45,383 nucleotides of DNA from Desulfuromonas sp. (GTDB taxonomy: Bacteria; Desulfobacterota; Desulfuromonadia; Desulfuromonadales; UBA2294): contig PKUH01000104.1 of NCBI GenBank assembly GCA_002869615.1, positions 1-45,383 of the forward strand. The letters run 5' to 3'. The notes under the pieces were generated by a model that saw only the letters and a list, made by a program, of their open reading frames with translations, searched no databases and had not been told where the DNA came from. The translations under genes were made by a program, and so were the position numbers. This document shows positions 418 through 45,383 of the stretch, piece by piece (the stretch's first letter is position 1; every line of letters begins with the position of its first letter).

Positions 418-1148
418 TCAATATCGGGTTTTACCTGTTTTGGTTTGTAGCTGATAATCGGTTTTTTATCGGGAGTTTGTTTCGACATTCTGCGGTTATC
501 GGTTCGCTGACTGAAAAACTGCAAACTGGAACAATCTCTTCTTCTGGGTTTTTTCACGCCAAGGTGTGCCCCATTCGACAATGAAATTCGGGATCTTCTG
601 CAATGGCTGGCCGGTTGAATCTGGATGCCCGCTCTGGATTCCGGATTCACGCCAGGATTGAGATGATCATCAGGCTTTGTAACCCCGATAGCGGTTTGCT
701 GGTGTTTGAGCACGATGGTGGTTCCGTGCACGGTCTGGACTGTTGCCGGACGATTCCGGAACACGGTGACGTAGCGCGCTTATGCTTGCCTGGACGTATA
801 GACTGTATCGGGTCGTTAATATTGATTCCGGCTCTCTTTGATCTCGTTGACCAGACCCGCACCACGTATCGTTTCTACGTACTTTTTATCCCCCTGATAT
901 ATGGTTCATCGCGTTTTATCGGGAATAAATGGTGCGCACCCAAATACCGCCATACTTTTTCAATCGCACCATGAAAGCATAATTCCAGTTCGCCGGTATC
1001 ACCCGCCTGATGATCAGGTTCCCTCACTGCGCAGATTTTAATCCGGCAGTCACTGGCGTTCCCTGAACGCCGGATTAAAATCCGCTTGCTCGGCGGTCTC
1101 ATATATGGCCCCGGTAGAGCAGTGGAAATGTTAAAAATGCTTTCTACA
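418..1148. other. Gene-poor intergenic stretch, possibly decayed DNA
   Basis: About 730 bases without a convincing gene. Short open frames occur on both strands but none has a Shine-Dalgarno site, a recognisable domain or a plausible protein composition. The only clear structure is the inverted repeat near 1031-1085. The stretch separates the DUF6901 gene from the hairpin-bounded repeat element and may be decayed former coding DNA; that is inference. Confidence 0.4.
1031..1085. repeat. Long inverted repeat (stem-loop)
   Basis: Arms at 1034-1047 (GATTTTAATCCGGC) and 1069-1082 (GCCGGATTAAAATC) are perfect 14-bp complements around a 21-base loop. The pairing extends outward by two more pairs after one mismatch. 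No T-run follows on either strand, so it is not a typical intrinsic terminator. It could be a mobile-element end or a protein site; there is no gene close enough to say. Confidence 0.6.
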
Positions 1149-1518
1149 GGGGACACTTCTGTAATTCGGGTAGTGTCCCCGTGCAACTTTTCGACTCCGA
1201 TCGGGAATCCATTGATGATTTTGACCCACCCCCGGTGCTCTTGAGGTCGCCCTTTGGCACCGCGTTCACTGAACCGTAGCCCAACCGCAACCGCCACGGA
1301 GACGTGCTGCGTTTGCCTCAAGGCAAACTCCTGAGCAGCAAAGTTGAACAGAAATAATCCTGACCGTACAAAAAAGCCCCCTGCAAGGGAGCCGTTTTCT
1401 GCATACTCTTTTATGGCTCAATAAAAGAGTATGGCGGAGTGCGCGGCCGCGACCGCGCGGTTCTCCCAACGTAAACTTTTCTCCGGGGACACTTCCCTGA
1501 ACTTCGGGAAGTGTCCCC
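1149..1518 (-). repeat. Structured dispersed repeat element, copy A
   Basis: A 370-bp element bounded by two related hairpins: 1149-1180 (9-bp stem GGGGACACT/AGTGTCCCC) and 1485-1518 (13-bp perfect stem starting GGGGACACTTCCC). Read on the minus strand it holds, in order, a GC hairpin (1441-1458, GCGCGG/CCGCGC), a 13-bp AT-rich hairpin (1402-1433, loop TGAGCC), a terminator-like hairpin with T-run (1373-1393), a short GTTTGCC/GGCAAAC palindrome (1311-1328) and a conserved tail containing ATCATCAATGGATT. The same order recurs in opposite orientation at 44898-45250. No transposase is inside. REP/MITE-like behaviour or a non-coding RNA is possible; the class is not identified. Confidence 0.8.
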
Positions 1519-1934
1519 ATCTAACAGGTGCCGCCATAAACAAAACCAATCAAAACCGTCGGTATCGAACGACCGGCTCCTGACTTTTCTTGCTTGTCCT
1601 GAGCCAGCTGAAGGAGGAGTCTAACGTTGTATTCACTCTAATCTGCGAAGAACCTAATATATAGCTGTTTCGGGCTGCTCTCTTCTTCGGGGCAATGACT
1701 GTTATTTATTGCCTGTTTCGAAAGGGAAATCGCCTGTTCAATAATTGCACACGTACCGGTATGCTCTGTATTGTGAAAAGTGTCAATAAATTCAATGGTT
1801 TGCATTTTTTTAAATGAATTCATCTGCGCAGAAATTGAACCAGAAGCTCCCGCCTGCCAATGAAATAAATTCAATGATTACAGCATGTTATGGCTATTTT
1901 TTAGTTGGCATTCTTCTCGCTAATATAGATAGTC
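1519..1934. other. AT-rich intergenic stretch, no clear gene
   Basis: Lower GC than its surroundings. A minus-strand frame of 61 codons (ATG at 1823, stop at 1638) is open but has no Shine-Dalgarno site and matches nothing I recognise; it may be a gene remnant. No strong promoter for the lipoprotein gene at 1935 is evident. Confidence 0.4.
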
Positions 1935-2715: not shown

Positions 2716-5700
2716 TCAGTTGCGACCCATCCAGCGGAGTGCGTCTCGAACCGAGTTTTGGTCGAACTTCATGCGGAATTTCACATAAGGACCCTGGGCG
2801 GTGTACTCGGCCTGCGAGAAATCATCATCCTGGAAGCCCTGGTAATTGTAGCCGAGGCTGATCCAGAAGTTTTCAGCCGGTGAGTACCCGATCGAGGCGC
2901 CGGAGTGATAGAGCGATTGACCAAGTTCCTGAACGGTCAGAGCGCTACCATGCAGTCCGACATCGATCCGGTTGCTGATGTCGTGGCGCCATTCACTTCC
3001 GAAGAGCCAGGTCATCCCGGAGTAGTCGATTGTACCGAAATCGTCGGCGGCATAACGGACGCCTGCCTTGAAATTCAAACGATTATTTGCATTGGCACGC
3101 CAGAAGGCATTGAGCCGTTCGACGATCTTCCAGTGTGCGGTTTTCGCGGTTGTAGTTTCGTTCAATGAGGTCGCCAGATCGAGCCGGTTCAGGATCAACC
3201 AGACCCGGTTGTCGGGACGATAAGCAAGGCCGAAGCTCAGATCAGCATCAGTCGACGTGCTCTGGTCAGATCGATCCGTTGTGAAGTAACTGCCATGCAG
3301 GCTGAGGCCCAGGAACGTTTCTGGCTCGACGATTGACCCGGCAAACAGTCCCCACCGCTCTTCCGTGTCACTGGTGCGGTACTCAACCCGGGTGTCGAAG
3401 GTCCAGTCAATTTCACGGTACGAAAGGCCAGTTGAAAGAGCCGTAAAATCTTCGGAACTGCCGGATGCCGGTGGTTGATCCGGGTGGAATGAGCTGTTAT
3501 TAGTTCCTGAGATGAGCTGACTTCGATCAACCGAAAAGTTGAGGCTCAGCTTCGGGTTGATCTGCCAGGTCTGCAGCAGGCCAAGATTGCCAAAGACCCG
3601 GCGACCGGCTTCATTGAGGTTCTGTTCCATCGAGGTCCGGATCTGCCCACCGTCCCATGGGGTGGCATTCAGTCCAACCCGGGTGCTGGCCGTATCGGCC
3701 GCATCGCCGGCGGTGATCTCCTGCTCGGCAAACAGTGACACCGAACGGTTCAGTTTATAGTTAGCGCCGACCGCCGTCCGGGTCGGGTAATCGCGGTTTT
3801 CGTTGTTAGCGATCGACTGCTCGTGACGCAGGGTCAGGTCAAGTTTTTTGGTGACATGATAATCGGCAGCAAAGGTTATTTGGTCAGAAGTTTCCGTAAG
3901 TCCGGTTGGCTGGTCGTCTTCAGCGTGGCGCAAGCCGGCACTCAGATTGTAGCGCTTGTCGTGATAATTAAGCGCAGCTTCCTCAACGGTCCGTTTGATG
4001 GCGGACGTCAGGTTTTCCTGCTTGTAGAATTCGGCGTCAACATCAAGCCTCTGGCTGAACCGGTAACGCAGATTCGTGCCGAATTTACGCGTTCCCGATT
4101 CACTGGCATTTTGCTGGCCGAGACCGAACCCTGCATCCTGCTCGCGCATATAGGCTGACAAGTCGAAGAGTCGGGTACGGTGTTCAATCTCGGCCAACCA
4201 GGCGTCACCCTCCGTGTCGAGGAGCGGGGTAGTGGTCCCGGTTGTTGCCCATTCACCGGAAACGGTCAGGCTGTCGGTCAGTTTCAGCTTGGCGTCAACA
4301 CCGTAAAGATCGCTCGCAACGGCATTCTGCCCTTCGTGGACCAGGCTGGCGCCGATTTCGACATTGCCATTGCCGGTCCGGCTGTAAGCGCGGCCGCCGT
4401 AGGTATAATCCTCAGCCCCTTGTGCCCCGGTTTCATAGTCAACGGTAATGAAGATCGGGTTGAGCCCCTGATCGCGGCTCTGTATCGGTTGCTTGAAGAA
4501 GATGGTGCCGGCGAAATAATCGATGTCGTAGTCAAGATGTCGTTGTAATGAACGGCTTTCGAGAATCTGCTCACTATGGAACCGGTCGCGGGTTTCGAGA
4601 ACGATTTTTTCCGAATTGATGACAATGTCACTCTGGCTGAGCCGATAGAGTCCCGAAGTGCCATCCCCCCGGATTTCGTCACGGACAAAACCCTGAGCTG
4701 TTTCACTGGCAAAGGCCGAGTAACCGAAGTGTTTACCACTCCATTCAGATTTGAGGCCGGTCAGGCTCCTGTTGTAACGGGAGAGATCGGTTACGTTCAT
4801 GCCGGTGTTGATGTCACCGAACATGGTATAGAAGCGTTCGCGTTCAATCCTGATAAAGAGCTTCTCGGCGCTGGCGGCAGCGTAACCCTGTTCGGAGGTG
4901 TCGCCGTACACCGTATAATATGTTCCCGGATCGATGATTTGTTGCAGGCTCCGATCTTTCAGGTCTTCCTTGTCCGAATCGTAGGCGAGGGTCAACAGCC
5001 ATTCGCCCCTGATCTGACCCTTGGCGAAGAAAGCGATGCGGCCGTCATCGTAATAGTCTTCTTCCGGCGCGTTCGGATCGAGCGGCTGGATGTTACCGGA
5101 AATCGAGTTGTAGCCGGCGGTCCCTTCGCCAAGACCGACCAGAATCCAGTCCCGTTTTTCCGGAGCGATGTAAACGTCAGCCTCAACTTCGGAATCCTCG
5201 TAACCGAGAACAATGTGATAGAGGCCGGCTTTGTTGACCGGATCGAATGTTGCCGTCCCCGAGCTGTTGACAGTGAGCAGATTGGCATCGGGAGCGTTCG
5301 GCAAGCGGCGGTTCTTGATCTCCGCCGGGATGAGCTCACCATTGCGGACCTCCAGTTTTGCTCCGGCCGGGATGCGTTGGCCGGATTCATCGTAAGTTGC
5401 AACCTGGATTTTGACCGGCGTACGCCCATCGGCAATATTGCCTTCGGTATCGATAACTTCGAGACGGGCAATCTTGCCGGTCCGGTTGATCGTGATCTCC
5501 TGTTCGAAGCGGGTGTTGCCGAAAGGACCGATGCCCTCGATCTTGAGGTTGTGCTGCCCGGGTTCGCCGAAATCGATGCCGATATAAGTCATCAAAATGG
5601 TTTCGCTGTCCGGCTCAGTCATCCTGAAACCAACCCTTTCCTCAGGGATTTCAGTGCCGTCGACAGATAGTTTCGGTTTCAGTTTTGAATCAATTCTGAC

Positions 5701-8349
5701 CCGGATGGCATCGATCCGGTGCGGCAGGTTATGTCCAGCAGCCGGAGAAAGAATGCCGGTTGCAACAGGTTCAGGGTCATTTTCAGGATTCCTTGATTCC
5801 AAAGCGGTTTTCAGGGACCCGGCTTTGCCGGACTGCGCTTCGATTTTTTCATTTTCCGGGTCAATAATAATCCGATGCAGGATTCGCAGCTCGGTGCGTC
5901 GGTTCAATGCCATCCCTTCCTCGGTTTCATTGTCGGCCATCGGCTCGGCGGCACCCATGCCGACGATGACGAGCTGTTCCGGATCGAGATTGAGTTGTTC
6001 CTGGAGTCGACGCGAGACAGATTCGGCCCTGGCTTCGGAGAGCTCGAAGTTGTCACGGTAGAGAATCCCTTCACGCCAACTGATGCGGCGTTCATCGGTA
6101 TGTCCGACGACAAAGACCTTGATAATGTTGAGTTTTTCAATCTTTTTCGCGGCCTGGTCAACTGACGCGATATCGTCCGGACTGAGGACGGCGTTCAGGG
6201 TGCCGAAATGCGGACGTATCAACAGCTCCTTGATGGTGGCGCGCTCTCCCCTGGAGATCCAGATCAGGGTGCTTTCCGCATCCGGCGTGACCAGCCCCTG
6301 GCTTGCCGGTGTGTCGAAGTGCAGACGGGCATGGGCCGGCATTTCACCGGTGCTGGTCTCCTGATCAATGAATGTCTGGAAGATGACCGTGCTCTGCCAG
6401 GTGTCTGCCTGGTCAGGAAGAACATAAGTAAGCTTTTGTCCGTCAATCTCCGGATCGGTCAAGGTCAGATCGTTCAGACGGGAGCTGCCCGGAAGGTAGG
6501 TTGCCTCGGGCGGCAGCTCAACTTCGAGTGTCTGGTTCCGGAACGGAATATCGTTGCCCGCCAGGGTAACGGTATAGGTTGCGGCAGAGCCGATCGCGTA
6601 GTCGTTGTTGAGGGCGATTGACACCTCTCCGTTGATCGGCTTGTCGTGGATGTAGAAGTCGGCGCGCCAGAGACTGCCGGGCTGCAGATCGACAAAACGT
6701 GACTCCGGGTTGTCGGCGAAACGGGTGTGCTCCTCGCAGCTGACCGCCTCGTATCCTTCCGGCAGGGTAATCGGATCGATCTGGACAACATGGGTGCCAG
6801 GGATGACCCCTTCGATGTGGTAGCGGCCGCGGTTGTCGGTCAGTACATAGGTGCCATCCTCCAGGTAAATCCGGACCCCTTCAACGCCGGCTTCGGTGCC
6901 GCAGCCGTTCAGGACCCGCCCGGCGATAATGTTCTTGCCGTTGCCGAGTTCATCACGGACTCGAACGGTCGCATCGGCCGGATTGGAAACCTGCCCGGAA
7001 ACGGCCCGGGCGAGGGCGTCGCTCGGATATTCTCCCGGCAGTATGGCGCCGACCTGGCTGCGGAAATCGATATCGACGGTTGTTCCGGTCGGGATGTCGC
7101 CGATTGAGAAAACAAGGGTGCTGCCATCGGCTGAAACGGCCGGGTCGGCAGCAGGGATTCCGTCCACGGTTGTCGATCCCGGTTGATAACGGAAACCGGC
7201 CGGCAGCTGCTGGGTGATGCTGACGGTTGTTGCTGTCACGGCTGCGGTATTTTCGACGTTCAGCGTAAAGGTGAAGATGTCACCAGACGAGACCAGGTTA
7301 CGGTCGGTGCCCATTTGCAGCCAGAGCCCGGAGCTGCTTCCGGTCGTTCCCGGATCGAGCGGAACATCAACCCTGATCGGGACACCGGTGCTGACGGTAA
7401 TGATTCCACCGTAGGAATCCGGGGTCTGGACAGTGTAGGCTCCGGCCGGGCTGGCTGCCGCCGATGGGAAAATATAGCCGGTTGGCGGGATGACCTGCAA
7501 TCGATAGTCGCCGGCCGGGATGAGTGGGAACCTGAACCCACCGGGAGGGAAGTTGTAGGTTAATGAACCAGCTGTGACGATGCTGCCACTGACAACCCGG
7601 CCCGGGTAGGCTGAGCCATCATCGCCGAGAACAGTTGTTGCATCAAGTCCGGTAGCCTCATCAATGAGAACAACCTCCGCACCGTCTACCGGAAGGCCTG
7701 TGGCGCTGTCAAAAATGAAACCGTACGGATCGACCAGGCTGGTTGCCGAGGCCGAATCTCCGTTGACAGGATCAATGTAATCAGCCTGAATCAACTCATC
7801 GGTTGTTACTAAGAGCTGACCGTCAAAATCAACCGGAGGCAATGGGCTCAGGTAAACATAACCGATATAAATACCTGTATTTAATCCTGTTTCAGCTAAC
7901 CGTAATAATTCAAGATCGCCGGAAACAGTTCCTGATACCTGGACCAGAACCGTTTCAGCAGTTGTCGTATCAATGTTTTGATCGGGATCGGTCACCCTGA
8001 TAACGACAACGTCGTTATTGAGATAACTTGTTGCCGCGGTAAGGGTACCCGGATTCGGTTGCAGGATCGGGTTGAAAGTCCCCGGTGGCGCAGCAGAACT
8101 GAATTCAGTGACTGGAAGAGTGGTTCCAAGAGGATCATCAACGGTCCGCAAAAATTCGATTGTTGCGGACGAAGAGGGTGGCGAAACCAGTACTGTCGCG
8201 GGGTTCGAGTTCATGGTAAACCCGACGCCGCTGTAGGTGTAGTCAAGGGTCGCGATGTTGTCGATATTATACGCTTGAGCTGTTGCCGCCCCCGCTACCA
8301 GGAAACAGGTAACGAGCAACGCCCGTCCCAGGCGATGAAGAGACTTCAT
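2716..8349 (-). CDS. Giant DUF11 / Cna-B-like / OmpA-like / outer-membrane barrel protein
   Basis: 1877 residues from the ATG that directly begins a signal peptide (MKSLHRLGRALLVTCFLVAG, cleavage near AQA). Approximate order: a bacterial beta-domain (about 110-165) shared with the 1433-residue protein of the same cluster; a carboxypeptidase-regulatory-like fold (205-335); a DUF11 domain (343-455); a Cna-B/SdrD-like domain (470-560); an OmpA-like peptidoglycan-binding domain (705-825, with VVGHTDERR and a late NRRTEL motif); Ig-like segments (870-1060); then about 800 residues of alternating strands typical of an outer-membrane barrel. It could span from peptidoglycan to the cell surface. An in-frame ATG at 8514 with an AGGA site would add 55 residues; the signal peptide favours 8349. 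Last gene of the cluster. Confidence 0.8.
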   Translation of the reverse strand: MKSLHRLGRALLVTCFLVAGAATAQAYNIDNIATLDYTYSGVGFTMNSNPATVLVSPPSSSATIEFLRTVDDPLGTTLPVTEFSSAAPPGTFNPILQPNPGTLTAATSYLNNDVVVIRVTDPDQNIDTTTAETVLVQVSGTVSGDLELLRLAETGLNTGIYIGYVYLSPLPPVDFDGQLLVTTDELIQADYIDPVNGDSASATSLVDPYGFIFDSATGLPVDGAEVVLIDEATGLDATTVLGDDGSAYPGRVVSGSIVTAGSLTYNFPPGGFRFPLIPAGDYRLQVIPPTGYIFPSAAASPAGAYTVQTPDSYGGIITVSTGVPIRVDVPLDPGTTGSSSGLWLQMGTDRNLVSSGDIFTFTLNVENTAAVTATTVSITQQLPAGFRYQPGSTTVDGIPAADPAVSADGSTLVFSIGDIPTGTTVDIDFRSQVGAILPGEYPSDALARAVSGQVSNPADATVRVRDELGNGKNIIAGRVLNGCGTEAGVEGVRIYLEDGTYVLTDNRGRYHIEGVIPGTHVVQIDPITLPEGYEAVSCEEHTRFADNPESRFVDLQPGSLWRADFYIHDKPINGEVSIALNNDYAIGSAATYTVTLAGNDIPFRNQTLEVELPPEATYLPGSSRLNDLTLTDPEIDGQKLTYVLPDQADTWQSTVIFQTFIDQETSTGEMPAHARLHFDTPASQGLVTPDAESTLIWISRGERATIKELLIRPHFGTLNAVLSPDDIASVDQAAKKIEKLNIIKVFVVGHTDERRISWREGILYRDNFELSEARAESVSRRLQEQLNLDPEQLVIVGMGAAEPMADNETEEGMALNRRTELRILHRIIIDPENEKIEAQSGKAGSLKTALESRNPENDPEPVATGILSPAAGHNLPHRIDAIRVRIDSKLKPKLSVDGTEIPEERVGFRMTEPDSETILMTYIGIDFGEPGQHNLKIEGIGPFGNTRFEQEITINRTGKIARLEVIDTEGNIADGRTPVKIQVATYDESGQRIPAGAKLEVRNGELIPAEIKNRRLPNAPDANLLTVNSSGTATFDPVNKAGLYHIVLGYEDSEVEADVYIAPEKRDWILVGLGEGTAGYNSISGNIQPLDPNAPEEDYYDDGRIAFFAKGQIRGEWLLTLAYDSDKEDLKDRSLQQIIDPGTYYTVYGDTSEQGYAAASAEKLFIRIERERFYTMFGDINTGMNVTDLSRYNRSLTGLKSEWSGKHFGYSAFASETAQGFVRDEIRGDGTSGLYRLSQSDIVINSEKIVLETRDRFHSEQILESRSLQRHLDYDIDYFAGTIFFKQPIQSRDQGLNPIFITVDYETGAQGAEDYTYGGRAYSRTGNGNVEIGASLVHEGQNAVASDLYGVDAKLKLTDSLTVSGEWATTGTTTPLLDTEGDAWLAEIEHRTRLFDLSAYMREQDAGFGLGQQNASESGTRKFGTNLRYRFSQRLDVDAEFYKQENLTSAIKRTVEEAALNYHDKRYNLSAGLRHAEDDQPTGLTETSDQITFAADYHVTKKLDLTLRHEQSIANNENRDYPTRTAVGANYKLNRSVSLFAEQEITAGDAADTASTRVGLNATPWDGGQIRTSMEQNLNEAGRRVFGNLGLLQTWQINPKLSLNFSVDRSQLISGTNNSSFHPDQPPASGSSEDFTALSTGLSYREIDWTFDTRVEYRTSDTEERWGLFAGSIVEPETFLGLSLHGSYFTTDRSDQSTSTDADLSFGLAYRPDNRVWLILNRLDLATSLNETTTAKTAHWKIVERLNAFWRANANNRLNFKAGVRYAADDFGTIDYSGMTWLFGSEWRHDISNRIDVGLHGSALTVQELGQSLYHSGASIGYSPAENFWISLGYNYQGFQDDDFSQAEYTAQGPYVKFRMKFDQNSVRDALRWMGRN

Positions 8350-8551
8350 CGACAAGGACCGGCGGACCGGGAAGTGCGTCGCCGCACTTCCCGATCTGAC
8401 GGGTTGAGGTTGCTGACCTCTGCTCACAGGGCGCAACAAGACGCTGAACGCAAATATACATTTGCGCCGGATGCGTTCCGTTACGGTCGTTATGTGAGAA
8501 CAGGTCAGGTTCATAAGTTCCTAATCAGGCACGCTCAGGTTGCCTGACTCA
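8350..8551 (-). promoter_or_regulatory. Hairpin-rich leader before the barrel gene
   Basis: Between the upstream stop and the signal-peptide ATG lie three stem-loops: a perfect 11-bp stem CGGGAAGTGCG/CGCACTTCCCG at 8369-8394, a short GAGGT/ACCTC hairpin near 8405-8420, and CGCAAAT/ATTTGCG at 8449-8466. No T-run follows, so simple termination is unlikely; mRNA processing or translation control is possible. The region is also open in frame from an ATG at 8514, so it may instead be coding. Confidence 0.4.
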
Positions 8552-10347: not shown

Positions 10348-13300
10348 TTATTTAATGACGGTCTGGTATATGACGGTAAAGCTTTCAGCTGCCGGCAACG
10401 ACCCGTTGTATGTCACTGTCCATTTGGCAACACGACCATCGCTGCCGGCCGGTGCGCCGCCGCCCCCATCGGTCAGGGTGATGGGTGTGCCGCTTTGATC
10501 TTCATAAGAGATGGTGCCGACGGTCAGTCCGCTATCCGAAAACGGACTCGGATCAATATAAGTAAAAGGTGTTCCGTTGCCGTAAGGATTGACCCCAAGC
10601 GCAACGAAATTGCTCATCATGACATCATCGAGAATCACGTTGTTTGCCGGTCCCGCTCCGGTGTTGGTGATAATAATCGTGTAGGTTATGGTGTCGCCGG
10701 GCTGGGCGCTGGCCGAACTGGCGCTCTTGAGAATCGTCAGGTTGGCTACCGGCGCGGCTACCGGAGTAAGGATGGCATCTTCCAGGTTGTTGCCCAAGAC
10801 CGGGTCATAGGTACCAGCGGCAGTAATTTCAGCCGTGTTGGTGATGTCGGTCCCCGCCGTACTGAAGTCGATGTCCGCGGTGATCGTCAAGGCCGCCGAG
10901 GTCTGTTTCGCCAAAGTCAGGCCGCTCAGGTCCCAGATCCCAGTGGTTTCATCGTAGGTGGTGCCAGGCTCGGGGGTATGGCTGCTATAGGTTAGTCCCG
11001 TGGGAAGCAGGTCGGTTACCTCGAGCCCGTTAGCGCTTGTCGGCCCGTTGTTCAGGACGGTGATGGTAAAAACCACCGTATCCCCTTCCTGGGGCGTGGC
11101 GTTGTCGACGATTTTGCTCAAGGCCATATCGGCCTCCTGGACAACCAGGATCACGCTCGCGGTGTCGTTGGCCGTGTTCGGGTCGGGTAGGCTGCTGTTC
11201 GTAACGGTTGCGGTTTTGGTGAGCGTTGTGCCGCCGGTGCCGGCATCGACAGTTGCGACGAGCTCTAGCGCGATTGTCGTGCCTGAAGCGAGGGTGCCGA
11301 CGTCCCAGATTCCGGTGGCTTGATCGTAGGTGGTGCCAGGCTCGGGATTATGGTTGCTGTAGGTCAGCCCTGTCGGCAGAAGGTCTTTGACCTCGATGAG
11401 GTTGGCGCTGTCGGGCCCGTTGTTGGTCAGGGTCAAGGTGTAGGTCACCGTATCGCCGACCGTAGGTGTCGGGGTGTCGGCGACCATGCCCAGGGCGAGG
11501 TCGGCGCCGCCGACGATGACCGTCACCTGGGAGGTGTTGTTAGTGCTGTCGGTTTCCGCTTCGTCGAGGCTGCTGACCAGGGCGGTGTTGACCAGGGTCG
11601 TGCCGTTCGCTGCGGTGACATCTGCGGTCACAGTGAGGGTGACGGTGGTGTAGGCCGGCAGGACGGTGTCGCCGCCGCTCTTGTTGCCGATCACCCAGAT
11701 CCCGGTACCATCATTGTAAGAGGTCTGGCTCCCGTAGTCGGAGCTCGAAGAAACGTAACTGAGCCCGGCGGGGAGGACTTCGCTGATCTCGAGATTGGTT
11801 GCAGTGTTGGGGCCGTTGTTGGTGACGACAAGGGTGTAAGTGATCCTGTCGCCGGTCGAGGGGTTGTTTTGGTCGACACTTTTAACAACCGAGATGTCGG
11901 TTCCGGCTACGCCGATAAGCACGCTGTCGGTATTGTTGTCGTTAACCGGGTCTTCCTGGTCTGCCGACTGTAGCGAGGCGAAGTTGAAGAAGGTTGCGGG
12001 GTCGTTTTTGCTGATGTTTACGGTACATGTAATCGTGAGTGTGGCGGTGTTGCCCGGGGCTGCAGCAGTGATCGTGCCGACCGTCCAGAGGTTGGTCGTT
12101 TCAGAATAGCTGCCGATGTCTGCCGAGGAGCTGACATAGTCGAGTTGACCGGGAAGTTCATCAAAAATGACTACGTTGGTCGCATCGATCGACCCCTTGT
12201 TCTCGACGGTGATGGTGAAGACGATGGTATCGCCATCCTGTGGCGTCGTGTTGTCAACCGACTTGGTGATGTCGAGATCGATGTAACGGACGGTGATGTT
12301 GATGCTGTCCGAATCATTGCTGGTGTCGGCATCGACCGGTCCGGCGATAACTTCTGCGGTGTTGCTGATGATCTGGCCGGCCGTGCCGCTGGCAACGACG
12401 GCGGTTATGGTCAGTGACGTACTTGCTCCTCCGGCCAGTTCCGTAGGAGGCGGGGTGTTGTCGAAAGCCCATATTCCGGTTGCCGGATCGTAGGTGGTTC
12501 CGGCCGGCGCGGAATGGCTGCTGTAGGTCACCCCGGAGGGCAGCTGATCCTCGACCTGGATCCCGGCTGCCGGGTTGGCGCCGAGGTTTTCTAGCAGCAG
12601 CGTGTAAGTAATGGTATCTCCGACATCAGGCGTAGGATTGTCGACGTTTTTCGTCAGGCGTAAATCGGTGCCGTCAACATAAAGGGGCACGGATGCGCTG
12701 TCGTTGGTGCTGATCGGATCGCTCTGGTCGACCGAAGAGATAGCCGCGGTCTTGTTGATGCTCGCATTGCTGGTTGCATTGACCGTCGCGGTTATCTCCA
12801 GGGTCTCACTGGCGCCGTTCGCCAGGGGGCCGAGCGTCCAGGTTCCACTCCCGGAGCCAGCAGTGTAGCTGTAGCTGCCGGCGCTGGGATTGCTGCTGAC
12901 ATAGGTGAGTTCGGCTATGTTCCAGAGGTCGGTGAGAACGATTCCGGTGGCATCGTATGAGCCGTTGTTGGTCGCGGTCAGGGTAAAGACGACGGTGTCG
13001 CCACCGTTCGGAGTAATCGTGTCGGCCGAAAGGGTAAGAGCGATGTCTGCTCCGGTTACCGCGACAGAGGCAGTGGCGCTGTTGTTGGAAGGATCGGGGT
13101 CCACTGCCGGTGATCTGGCAGTGATGGCGGCGGTGTTGGTGATCGATGTCAGGCTGGTTCCCGGATCGACCGAAGCGACAATATCGAGACTGACGTTGTT
13201 GTTGGCAGCAAGGGTGTTGATCGACCAGATCCCGGTTGCAGGGTTGTAGTAGCTGCCGGTACCGGTATCGCTGACATAGGTGAGCCCTGGCGGGAGCAGG

Positions 13301-14649
13301 TCCGTGACCTTGATACTGGTGGCGTTGCTGGGGCCATTGTTGGTCAACGTCAGTGTAAAAGTGACGTTGTCACCTTCGTCGGGGGTAGAGTTGTTGACGC
13401 TCTTTGTGAGAGCGAGATCGGCTGCCGGAAGAGCTTTGATGTTGGTGCTGCGAACTTCGAACTGATCGAGGTCGGCATCAGCGGCATCGACGTAGCTGGC
13501 GGTAACAAATTCGATTGGTGAAGCCTGCAGTATTTCGTCTGAGGATGCCGGTGCCTCTTCTGTTGTCAGGCTGGCGTTAAAAACTCCCGAGTCGACTCCG
13601 GTTTCAGTCAGGGTGACGGTTACGGTGTCTCCGTTTGACACGATGGTGACGCTAACGGTTTCGCGCAGAGTCGGAATGCTGTTCTGGTCTGAATCGTCGA
13701 CCCTGATAAAAAGTGGTTCTCCGGGATAGAACTCGGTGTCGGAACCATTGCCGGCGATATCGGCAACAAATGCTATGGTGGCGGTCGCAGGTAGTTCGCC
13801 GTTCGGCAGAACTTCATCGGAGAGACCGTCTGTGAGGGTCGGGGTGCCGGCGGAGGTGCCAAGGTCGGCAGTCAGGGTCTGGGCGCTGTTGGAGCTGCCG
13901 ATAAAAAGGCGGATGAGTGAATCGTCGGTCAGGCCGAGGGTCGATTTGAAGATGTCGAACGGCATGCGGTAGTCGAGGTAGTAATCTCCGTCTCCGCCGA
14001 AGCTTGAAGTCGGGCCATCGGGGTCGGTCGGAGTTAGAACCCGGTAATTGCCGCTGACCGGGGCGCTGTTGAGCAATTGAGACCAGGTTTTTGTCTCGGC
14101 TTTATCGCTCGGATCGCTGATATTAGTCTTGGTGGTATTTGCGGCGAGGTAAATGCTCTCGGGTGCTTTGATACCGTCAAGCATGAGCAAGAATTCATAA
14201 TCGCCGGCATCGCCGTCGGTGTCGAACAGGAAACCCCAGCCGAAGGGGTCGAGGGCGGTCAAAGAGTTGTCACGCGGGTCTTGGTCGATGCGTTGGCGAA
14301 AGTAGATATAGGTGCCATCGTTGTACATTGAGCCAGCCGGGAAATTGGTGGTGTCACCGACGATATCCCTGGACGTAGCGCTATCCTTTTGAGGGTCATC
14401 AACGAAGTCGCCGCCGTTGTAATAAAGGGCGTTCCAGTCGCTTTCAGCCGGCCAGGCTTCGGCACTGTTTACCGTGAAATGAAGTGAACCAAGCAGGAAG
14501 AAAAAAAACAGAAAAAAGTAAAAGCAGCCGTTTGATTTTTTAAAAATTAAGGCTTTTTTTGCAAGATTTACCGGTCTTGTTGCACATAAGTGTGACAAGA
14601 GTGTGACTGTTTTTGTCATTAAATGTGCATTGTTTGGCAATCTTTGCAT
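10348..14649 (-). CDS. Giant DUF11-repeat surface protein under riboswitch control
   Basis: 1433 residues. The signal peptide is long (hydrophobic core about residues 40-58, cleavage near NSAEA at 61-65). Residues 66-300 form a unique N-terminal domain (DWNALYYNGGDFVDD; LFDTDGDAGDYEFLL). Residues 305-400 share a VxDxDQN...ETVxV...ETGxxxGxF module with the giant barrel protein. From about 410 to the end there are about eight DUF11 repeats of some 125 residues, each beginning like DLALTKSVNN-TPxxGD, then TFTLTLTNNGP and VTDLLPxGLTYVS. No sortase or barrel anchor is visible, so it may be held by the other cluster proteins. Its ATG follows a GAGGT site immediately after the riboswitch terminator. 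First gene of the cluster. Confidence 0.85.
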   Translation of the reverse strand: MQRLPNNAHLMTKTVTLLSHLCATRPVNLAKKALIFKKSNGCFYFFLFFFFLLGSLHFTVNSAEAWPAESDWNALYYNGGDFVDDPQKDSATSRDIVGDTTNFPAGSMYNDGTYIYFRQRIDQDPRDNSLTALDPFGWGFLFDTDGDAGDYEFLLMLDGIKAPESIYLAANTTKTNISDPSDKAETKTWSQLLNSAPVSGNYRVLTPTDPDGPTSSFGGDGDYYLDYRMPFDIFKSTLGLTDDSLIRLFIGSSNSAQTLTADLGTSAGTPTLTDGLSDEVLPNGELPATATIAFVADIAGNGSDTEFYPGEPLFIRVDDSDQNSIPTLRETVSVTIVSNGDTVTVTLTETGVDSGVFNASLTTEEAPASSDEILQASPIEFVTASYVDAADADLDQFEVRSTNIKALPAADLALTKSVNNSTPDEGDNVTFTLTLTNNGPSNATSIKVTDLLPPGLTYVSDTGTGSYYNPATGIWSINTLAANNNVSLDIVASVDPGTSLTSITNTAAITARSPAVDPDPSNNSATASVAVTGADIALTLSADTITPNGGDTVVFTLTATNNGSYDATGIVLTDLWNIAELTYVSSNPSAGSYSYTAGSGSGTWTLGPLANGASETLEITATVNATSNASINKTAAISSVDQSDPISTNDSASVPLYVDGTDLRLTKNVDNPTPDVGDTITYTLLLENLGANPAAGIQVEDQLPSGVTYSSHSAPAGTTYDPATGIWAFDNTPPPTELAGGASTSLTITAVVASGTAGQIISNTAEVIAGPVDADTSNDSDSINITVRYIDLDITKSVDNTTPQDGDTIVFTITVENKGSIDATNVVIFDELPGQLDYVSSSADIGSYSETTNLWTVGTITAAAPGNTATLTITCTVNISKNDPATFFNFASLQSADQEDPVNDNNTDSVLIGVAGTDISVVKSVDQNNPSTGDRITYTLVVTNNGPNTATNLEISEVLPAGLSYVSSSSDYGSQTSYNDGTGIWVIGNKSGGDTVLPAYTTVTLTVTADVTAANGTTLVNTALVSSLDEAETDSTNNTSQVTVIVGGADLALGMVADTPTPTVGDTVTYTLTLTNNGPDSANLIEVKDLLPTGLTYSNHNPEPGTTYDQATGIWDVGTLASGTTIALELVATVDAGTGGTTLTKTATVTNSSLPDPNTANDTASVILVVQEADMALSKIVDNATPQEGDTVVFTITVLNNGPTSANGLEVTDLLPTGLTYSSHTPEPGTTYDETTGIWDLSGLTLAKQTSAALTITADIDFSTAGTDITNTAEITAAGTYDPVLGNNLEDAILTPVAAPVANLTILKSASSASAQPGDTITYTIIITNTGAGPANNVILDDVMMSNFVALGVNPYGNGTPFTYIDPSPFSDSGLTVGTISYEDQSGTPITLTDGGGGAPAGSDGRVAKWTVTYNGSLPAAESFTVIYQTVIK

Positions 14650-43585: not shown

Positions 43586-44806
43586 TTACTCTTCTTCGAC
43601 CAGCCGACTGGTGATCTTGACCTCCGAGTGAAGCGTCTTATGGACCGGACAGCGATCGGCTATTTCAAGCATCCGTTGTTGCTGCTCCGCATCGAGCTCT
43701 CCCGTCAGGCTGATTTCCCGCTCAATATGATCGATTTTGCCGGTCTCCGAACTGCAGTCGTCGCAATCTTTTGCGTGTATTTTCTTGTGCGTCAGCGTCA
43801 CCGTGACCGCGTCGAGGGGCAACTTTTTATGGTCGGCATACATCCGCAGGGTCATGGCGGTGCAGGCACCGACCCCGGCGACCAGCAGGTCGTATGGCGA
43901 AGGGCCGTGGTTGGTTCCGCCGACGGCTATCGGCTCATCGGCAACCAGCGGATGACCGTTGGCGACGATATCGGTATGAAACCCCTGCTCGAGACGGGCC
44001 ACCACCTTATTGTCGGGATGGGTAACGTCCGGGTCCTTGCGCCTGATCTCCAGGAATTTTCCGGCCCAGGTTGCGGCGATCAACCCGGCATAATCCGCAT
44101 CCTGAGCATTGCTGAGCAGATGGTCGGCGGTGTCGAGTGAAATGAAACTTTTTGGGTGCCGGGCCGCCTTGAAGATTGTCGCAGCATGGTCGATCGAGAC
44201 AATTTTATCGAAGGGCGAGTGCATGACAAGCAGCGGTTTTTTGAGGTTTTGCAGCGCCTCTTCGAGATGGCTTTCGCGCAAGTCGTCAATAAACTCTTTC
44301 CTGATGCGAAACGTCCGGCCGCCAAGGTCGACTTCGGCTTCCCCCCGCTGCAGGATTTCTTCTTCATTCTCCTTGAAGTGGTCAATGATATGGGCCGGAT
44401 CGGAAGGCGCGGCAATCGTGATAATCGCCCGGATCGAATCGATTTTTCCGGCGGCATTGATCACCGCGGCACCGCCGAGCGAATGCCCGATCAGCAACGC
44501 CGGCGGCATCTCTTCGCGGCGCATGAATTCTGCTGCCCGGACAAGGTCGTCGACGTTCGAAGAGAAACTGGTTTCAGCAAACTCTCCTTCGCTCGCCCCG
44601 ATTCCGGTAAAGTCGAAACGGAGGACCGCGATCCCCTGGCAGGCCAGGGCCCGGCTGATCTGAACCGCGGCCTTGATGTTTTTGCTGCAGGTGAAGCAGT
44701 GGGCGAAAATTGCGTAGGCATGCGGTTTACGGTCGACCGGCAGCTCAAGCCGTCCAGAAAGATCCTGGTTGTCGCTGTTGGTGAATGTTATCTTTTCGGT
44801 TCGCAT
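43586..44806 (-). CDS. Alpha/beta hydrolase - OsmC fusion protein
   Basis: 406 residues. The N-terminal 250 residues form an alpha/beta hydrolase with nucleophile Ser109 in GHSLGG, an acidic residue in MHSPFDKIV and a His in DTADHLLS. The C-terminal 130 residues are an OsmC domain with both redox cysteines (VGACTAMTLRMYADHKKL and DRCPVHKTLHS), indicating hydroperoxide reduction by a thiol mechanism. The fusion is a known bifunctional family; the hydrolase substrate is unknown. GGAGG lies before the ATG. It is convergent with the DUF6962-like gene with no clear terminator in the 15-bp gap. Confidence 0.92.
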   Translation of the reverse strand: MRTEKITFTNSDNQDLSGRLELPVDRKPHAYAIFAHCFTCSKNIKAAVQISRALACQGIAVLRFDFTGIGASEGEFAETSFSSNVDDLVRAAEFMRREEMPPALLIGHSLGGAAVINAAGKIDSIRAIITIAAPSDPAHIIDHFKENEEEILQRGEAEVDLGGRTFRIRKEFIDDLRESHLEEALQNLKKPLLVMHSPFDKIVSIDHAATIFKAARHPKSFISLDTADHLLSNAQDADYAGLIAATWAGKFLEIRRKDPDVTHPDNKVVARLEQGFHTDIVANGHPLVADEPIAVGGTNHGPSPYDLLVAGVGACTAMTLRMYADHKKLPLDAVTVTLTHKKIHAKDCDDCSSETGKIDHIEREISLTGELDAEQQQRMLEIADRCPVHKTLHSEVKITSRLVEEE

Positions 44807-44897: not shown

Positions 44898-45250
44898 TGG
44901 AGACACTACCCGAAGTTCAGGGAAATATTCCCTGACCTGGATACTGAAAACATGAAGACAGAAGACGAGAGAACCGCGCGGTCGCGGCCGCGCACTCCGC
45001 CATACTCTTTTATTAAGCCATAAAAGAGTATGCAGAAAACGGCTCCCCTGCAGGGGGCTTTTTTGGTTTGTCTGAATTGTTTCTGTTCAACTGTGCTGCC
45101 GGGGAGTTTGCCTTGAGGCAAACGCAGTTCGTCTCCGTGGCGTTTGCGGTTAGGCTGCGGTTTAATGATCGCGCTGACGGGAGCGACCTCAAGAGCTCCA
45201 GGGGTAAGTCAAAATCATCAATGGATTGCCAAACGGAGTCTAAAAGTTGA
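44898..45250 (+). repeat. Structured dispersed repeat element, copy B
   Basis: The same series as at 1149-1518 but on the plus strand: a degenerate bounding hairpin (44898-44931), a GC hairpin (44976-44993, GCGCGG/CCGCGC), a 13-bp AT-rich hairpin (45001-45032, loop TAAGCC), a terminator-like GGCTCCCC/GGGGGCT with T-run (45041-45064), a GTTTGCC/GGCAAAC palindrome and a tail with ATCATCAATGGATT. It is highly similar to copy A over most of its length, with the largest differences in the spacers. No gene is inside. Confidence 0.8.
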
Positions 45251-45251
45251 C

Positions 45252-45383
45252 GGGGACACTACCCGAATCCCAGGGAAGTATCCCCCTGAAGACAGAATAC
45301 AGGAAGAACCGCCGGGTCCCGGCCCGGCAGCCGGGTTCATTTCTTTATTAAGCGATAAAGAAACGAACCAAAGAAACCGCTCC
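45252..45383 (+). repeat. Second, partial unit of the repeat element (runs off window)
   Basis: Starts with a GGGGACACT...AGTATCCCC hairpin (45252-45285), then a GC hairpin GCCGGG/CCCGGC (45311-45328) and an AT-rich hairpin TTTCTTTAT/ATAAAGAAA (45340-45363, loop TAAGCG), then an AAGAAACCGCTCC segment parallel to the AGAAAACGGCTCC of unit 1. Stem sequences differ from unit 1 but stay paired. The end is cut by the window. Confidence 0.75.

Follow-up and report, generated by a model that had tools for sequence, protein, structure and literature searches.

A dispersed, structured non-coding repeat with a predicted triple-helix pseudoknot at its ends, in a Desulfuromonas genome and across several bacterial phyla

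The window analysed here is the whole 45,383-nucleotide stretch of contig C104 (PKUH01000104.1), from a Desulfuromonas genome of 3.08 Mb in 121 contigs. It closes on two adjacent units that are, judged by sequence, copies of a dispersed non-coding repeat of 200–600 bp. The end module of this element can, by prediction, fold on the minus strand in the order 5'-S1, U/C-rich L1, pyrimidine arm, loop with the partner of S1, purine arm, CG linker, GC-rich hairpin-3', and this structure is well supported by the sequences compared. We suggest that it is a dispersed REP/BIME-like repeat, not autonomous, with ends that act as structured RNA close to transcript 3' ends. The RNA action, the function and the mobiliser are inferred and unproven, and we see the case for this reading as evenly balanced.

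The first-pass annotation had described paired stem differences between two adjacent units in the last 486 bases of the window, and a letter-by-letter check found all of the described pairings, including the change of the GC hairpin from GCGCGG/CCGCGC to GCCGGG/CCCGGC. The AT hairpin reads CATACTCTTTTAT-TAAGCC-ATAAAAGAGTATG in unit 1, where 13 of 13 positions pair, and GGTTCATTTCTTTAT-TAAGCG-ATAAAGAAACGAACC in unit 2, where 14 of 15 do. Its count of six changed AT-stem positions in seven that keep pairing was also borne out; the seventh is an A.C, which is G.U on the other strand. No 13-bp hairpin arose by chance in 2,000 shuffles of the 486 bases. The terminator-like hairpin reported in unit 1 was located, and it overlaps the S1 strand, so that the two folds are mutually exclusive on the plus strand. 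The GGGGACAC hairpin said to lead each unit is present ahead of both as a palindrome, but it belongs to a separate dispersed REP-like repeat that occurs apart from the module in the genus-mate. The features are given below with scores from a covariance model, R1 (74 positions, 17 sequences, built in the minus-strand, folding orientation). Unit 1 is itself one of the 17 sequences.

44899–44932, plus strand: REP-like imperfect palindrome GGAGACACTACCCGAAGTTCAGGGAAATATTCCC ahead of unit 1; separate dispersed repeat family, found alone in the genus-mate G001
44971–45044, minus strand: terminal module of unit 1, type A, with S1 strand, L1 linker, AT stem and loop, purine arm, CG linker and GC hairpin; R1 87.7 bits, E 2.6e-21
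44976–44993, minus strand: GC hairpin of unit 1, GCGCGG/CCGCGC, with a hexaloop; covaries across relatives
45001–45032, minus strand: AT/purine hairpin of unit 1, stem S2 of 13 bp, loop TAAGCC on the plus strand; supported by covariation
45033–45040, minus strand: linker of unit 1, CAGAAAAC on the plus and GUUUUCUG on the minus strand, proposed third strand L1 with UUUUCU beside AAAAGA; supported by base-triple covariation
45041–45044, minus strand: S1 strand GGCT of unit 1, partner loop AGCC at 45016–45019 (putative pseudoknot); supported by pairing covariation
45042–45065, plus strand: intrinsic-terminator-like hairpin and T-run of unit 1, from predicted fold and sequence
45066–45220, no strand assigned: central domain of the lineage's element, with hairpin GTTTGCC-TTGA-GGCAAAC (45106–45123) and conserved CCTCAAG (45187–45193); conserved in 48 copies of this genome
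45252–45285, plus strand: REP-like palindrome GGGGACACTACCCGAATCCCAGGGAAGTATCCCC ahead of unit 2
45305–45381, minus strand: terminal module of unit 2, type B, with the contig end 2 bases beyond; type B copies occur elsewhere in the genome
45311–45328, minus strand: GC hairpin of unit 2, GCCGGG/CCCGGC, from the letter-by-letter check
45334–45369, minus strand: AT/purine hairpin of unit 2, 15 bp with one A.C (G.U on the minus strand), loop TAAGCG
45370–45377, minus strand: linker of unit 2, AAAGAAAC, on the minus strand GUUUCUUU, proposed third strand UUUCUUU beside AAAGAAA; supported by triple covariation
45378–45381, minus strand: S1 strand CGCT of unit 2, partner loop AGCG at 45351–45354
1137–1522, minus strand: further copy of the element in the window, from DNA matches, with an R1 match at C104:1390–1463

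Unit 2 is truncated, as the contig ends at position 45383. The central hairpin covaries, reading GATCGCC/GGCGATC in G001 and TTCGCC/GGCGAA in copies of this genome; separately, we note that its loop region and the invariant CCTCAAG downstream are complementary and may form a second long-range pairing in the lineage's element. In G001, copies of the REP-like palindrome GGGGACACTACCCGAAGTTCAGGGAAGTGTCCCC are scattered in many places independently of the module, often about 20 bp from an element end. Elsewhere in the window, all on the minus strand and identified by eye, are an open reading frame resembling a fusion of alpha/beta hydrolase and OsmC-like domains (43586–44806) and two very long ones, of 1932 and 1433 amino acids, rich in repeated DUF11-like surface domains (2716–8514 and 10348–14649).

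Both hairpins that the first-pass annotation took as the fold are real, but they appear to be parts of a larger structure, a predicted pseudoknot with a probable triple helix. The AT-hairpin loop complements the bases that directly follow the hairpin (AGCC/GGCT in unit 1, AGCG/CGCT in unit 2). Thus, the loop difference TAAGCC/TAAGCG is compensated, because the S1 strand changes from GGCT to CGCT in step. This loop-to-tail pairing is predicted to give an H-type pseudoknot. Modules of relatives have the same pairing in other letters, for example GCACC/GGTGC, GCGTG/CACGC and GGTCC/GGACC. The longest loop/tail complement is 4.54 for the modules of this genome and its relatives, compared with 3.39±0.09 when tails are shuffled among modules, and 3.95 compared with 3.31±0.08 for the cross-phylum set. 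When the modules were collapsed to 152 distinct loops from several phyla it was 3.99 compared with 3.20±0.07, a value that none of 1,000 shuffles reached.

Copies from the genome and its relatives, brought together in a covariance alignment, showed strong covariation, and the earlier inference that the fold itself has been maintained is upheld. No identity to any known insertion-sequence end was found. Most stem pairs occur with three or four Watson-Crick types across relatives. Among R1 matches 97.1% of cells are paired (73.4±0.6% when shuffled) and covariation reaches 0.541 (0.136±0.008 when shuffled; slid controls at most 0.098). These stem counts lean towards structure, as the alignment was fitted to it; the S1 and triple tests are independent of the alignment.

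The purine arm is mirrored by the linker that joins the hairpin to the S1 strand (AAAAGAG..CAGAAAA, AAAGAAAG..CAAAGAAA). On the opposite strand this linker is U/C-rich, runs parallel to the purine arm and occupies the L1 position of an H-type pseudoknot; L1 of such pseudoknots crosses the major groove of the second stem. At register 0, the one register that a major-groove triple helix predicts, C stands opposite G and U opposite A with a log-odds of 2.09 (0.00±0.37 when shuffled). Collapsed to 37 purine arms, the log-odds is 1.89, and 1 shuffle in 2,000 was as high. The signal at register +1, where arms with one extra loop-side base align, is weaker (log-odds 0.80; 35 of 2,000 shuffles after collapsing). 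The two units of the window match as well, with UUUUCU beside AAAAGA and UUUCUUU beside AAAGAAA. The test used stems extended inward and a fixed anchoring; an earlier version, with free offset and badly trimmed stems, gave no clear signal. From these patterns we infer that L1 lies beside the purine arm in U.A-U and C+.G-C triples, which would make a major-groove triple helix like that of telomerase. This interpretation is well supported, although by covariation only and by no physical structure.

The folding strand here is probably the minus strand, because in the pseudoknot geometry L1 would cross the major groove only on that strand. Stem mismatches in module orientation, uncorrected for relatedness, include 27 A.C and 9 G.T. 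Since A.C is G.U on the other strand, this excess likewise suggests that folding takes place on that strand.

Both units of the tandem pair are real, and the family extends far beyond them, with 66 modules matched by R1 in this genome. A DNA search of the genome with the region gave 59 matches, many of them at contig ends, and the alignment of 48 copies revealed a very conserved hairpin module, of type A (as in unit 1) or type B (as in unit 2), within a more divergent element of 250 bp. R1 matched in 19 of 296 genomes of the phylum, with nearly all strong matches from the same order; the model is biased to its own order. An exact pattern of stem plus linker, run against named genomes, extends the distribution: among the matches listed are Bacteroidota, Elusimicrobiota, Campylobacterales, Burkholderiales, Competibacteraceae, Paraglaciecola, Oscillospiraceae and Desulfuromonadales. 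Beyond its own phylum, the module is found in Bacteroidota, Elusimicrobiota, Campylobacterota, Bacillota and Proteobacteria. In many of the cross-phylum matches the tail complements the loop and a GC hairpin follows. Fourteen other genomes hold 1–24 exact copies each, and a reversed control pattern gave none. Pontibacter, Breznakibacter xylanolyticus and Malonomonas rubra are module-rich species that are in culture. Copies compared within a genome share conserved blocks of about 150–330 bp with no gene inside, and they are alike within a genome, with loops and arms that differ between genomes.

Some of the cross-phylum modules have, 5' of the pseudoknot, a further hairpin whose internal loop, UGUUUGAG/CGAGUUU, is conserved. 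In 0.86 Mb, 18 of the 19 occurrences of this motif are within 170 bases of a module; of 112 modules, however, only 18 carry it. Both the outer and the inner stem of this hairpin vary (for example at loci L125, L178, L185; L082, L231). One of these loci, L231 (G016:C1:667500–683500), is an array of duplicated HIT-family and HNH-type genes together with a nucleotidyltransferase and further genes, and a same-orientation module follows each of them. On inspection the array is not integron-like. The Rfam 15 covariance models, at gathering score, placed no family on the modules and found only two flanking tRNAs. Searches of plasmids, phages and viral contigs with module queries gave no match, and exact module patterns had none in 2.9 million viral contigs. 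The 90 matches of UGUUUGAG..CGAGUUU in viral contigs, only a dozen with a flanking stem, were set aside as probable host DNA.

Neighbouring modules in relatives of the same order face one another in 46 cases, 340–480 bp apart, share an orientation in 4 and stand back to back in 27, as adjacent array units do. An Oscillospiraceae copy has the same facing layout at 589 bp; facing pairs are clear in the same order and shown in few other cases. Because facing modules are inverted, a folded module stands at the 3' end of either strand of the element. The ends of the element are inverted in structure and not in sequence. Many of the elements in this genome have degraded or are composite, with the GGGGACAC palindrome mixed in. 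When empty sites were sought in G001 and G002, the two flanks matched different G001 contigs and no clean empty site emerged. By a simple ORF heuristic, divergent gaps hold 4 of 65 modules across phyla, compared with 43 of 199 background gaps, and 2 of 34 modules in relatives. This avoidance of divergent gaps may only reflect removal from promoters. After the GC hairpin there is a T-enriched but weak run, with a T fraction of 0.49–0.65 at positions 3–6 that is lower thereafter; an intrinsic terminator has about 6–8 T after its GC hairpin. Contig C61 of G000 also encodes, at 2795–4141 (L045), an IntI-like tyrosine recombinase of 448 amino acids that scores above the TIGR02249 cut-off; the contig is short and shows no cassette array.

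How might such an element act? We propose that transcripts from neighbouring genes on either side would read through it and end in a triple-helix pseudoknot and a GC hairpin. Such an end would act as a structured stop for polymerase or a barrier to 3'-to-5' decay, as paired REPs (BIMEs) do. Within each genome, the element would spread because a trans-acting factor, as yet unidentified, carries it along as a passenger. This RNA action is inferred, as there are no transcript data. The first-pass annotation had left a choice between a non-coding RNA and a single-stranded DNA element. The region is indeed non-coding with a maintained fold, but that choice remains undecided, and we should consider the possibility, which strikes us as rather doubtful, that the pseudoknot acts as single-stranded DNA. 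It would then be a structural inverted end for a Y1/HUH-type or other transposase, the element a MITE with folded ends, and transcription incidental. Modules do bound short non-coding units as inverted pairs, one at either end, and also form tandem arrays; the likeness of copies within genomes and their differences between genomes are what recent amplification would leave; 12 of the 14 module genomes, and G000, have Y1_Tnp proteins; and T.A-T/C+.G-C triplexes form in DNA too. Counter to this, no module was seen beside a Y1_Tnp (RAYT) gene by coordinates, and a genome with 22 copies has no Y1_Tnp at all. The ends of IS200/IS605 elements are not inverted. No autonomous version was found: the 2.9-kb inverted pair in G005, considered as a candidate, was rejected as it encloses ordinary, cobalamin-type genes.

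Alternatively, the copies could be plain mobile bidirectional terminators, in which the GC and terminator-like hairpins do the work and the pseudoknot is dispensable. Modules stand next to gene 3' ends and copies in this genome carry GGCTCCC..GGGGGC-TTTTTT. We nevertheless regard this as unlikely: the T-run terminator is confined to G000 and G001 copies and other genera lack it, yet the S1 and triple covariation persist across phyla. That the modules are attC sites of an integron, or what is left of the cassettes of a chromosomal one, seems highly improbable. The C61 recombinase (418 bits) shares its contig with several copies, and some relatives have arrays, but two other genes separate the recombinase from the copies. 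The anatomy of the boxes is wrong, with no consistent RYYYAAC/GTTRRRY and with GTCGGGC in most of this genome's copies where GTT is needed, and full-length IntI is absent from the module-rich genomes G006, G026, G029, G038 and G087; on these two grounds the attC reading was rejected.

Dispersed structured repeats are a known kind, as in REP/BIME. Like these, the modules are short, structured, non-coding and dispersed in many copies, avoid divergent promoters and often form inverted pairs. They differ in that a module is a pseudoknot of about 75 nt plus a GC hairpin, with proposed base triples, whereas a REP is a hairpin of 20–40 nt, and in that modules span several phyla and are not neighbours of RAYT genes. 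Telomerase RNA and some riboswitches are known to contain triple-helix pseudoknots. The telomerase RNA pseudoknot and the SAM-II and preQ1-II riboswitches share with the module an H-type pseudoknot whose pyrimidine-rich L1 occupies the major groove of the second stem; the modules, however, have another sequence and host element, are dispersed and have no known ligand or protein. The triple-helix stability elements (ENEs) of PAN, MALAT1 and plant and fungal transposon RNAs resemble what is proposed here, a U-rich triple helix close to the 3' ends of RNA from a repeated element. In eukaryotes, ENEs hold a poly(A) tail, whereas the purine strand of the module is internal and its hosts are bacterial. 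ToxI, the RNA of type III toxin-antitoxin systems, also gives bacterial RNA pseudoknots with base triples, but as short tandem repeats beside a toxin gene; the modules are dispersed without one.

Searches of the literature, by sequence and by concept, and of Rfam found no description of a cross-phylum bacterial repeat that combines a dispersed repeat with a triple-helix pseudoknot. Multicopy nucleotide sequences of Geobacter and Pelobacter include dispersed, partly palindromic intergenic families, some with inverted-repeat ends (PMC2700814, PMC2996986, PMC3543383). Main-text passages of these papers give no pseudoknot, triple helix or cross-phylum link; part of the family may be catalogued there without structure, in supplementary lists that are not covered here. 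At its broadest, and only as a tentative idea that may well prove wrong, the family could be a cross-phylum class of bacterial mobile non-coding elements that make RNA with a telomerase-like triple-helix pseudoknot at its end. Such a class, copied in trans by way of that structure, would parallel in bacteria the triple-helix elements found in transposon RNAs of eukaryotes.

If the fold is real, a triple-helix pseudoknot absent from Rfam 15 would stand in tens of copies between genes in several phyla. It would define a large unannotated class of repeats, one that also breaks genome assemblies at its copies. The three-strand covariation of these natural copies would offer a rich dataset on the rules of base triples.
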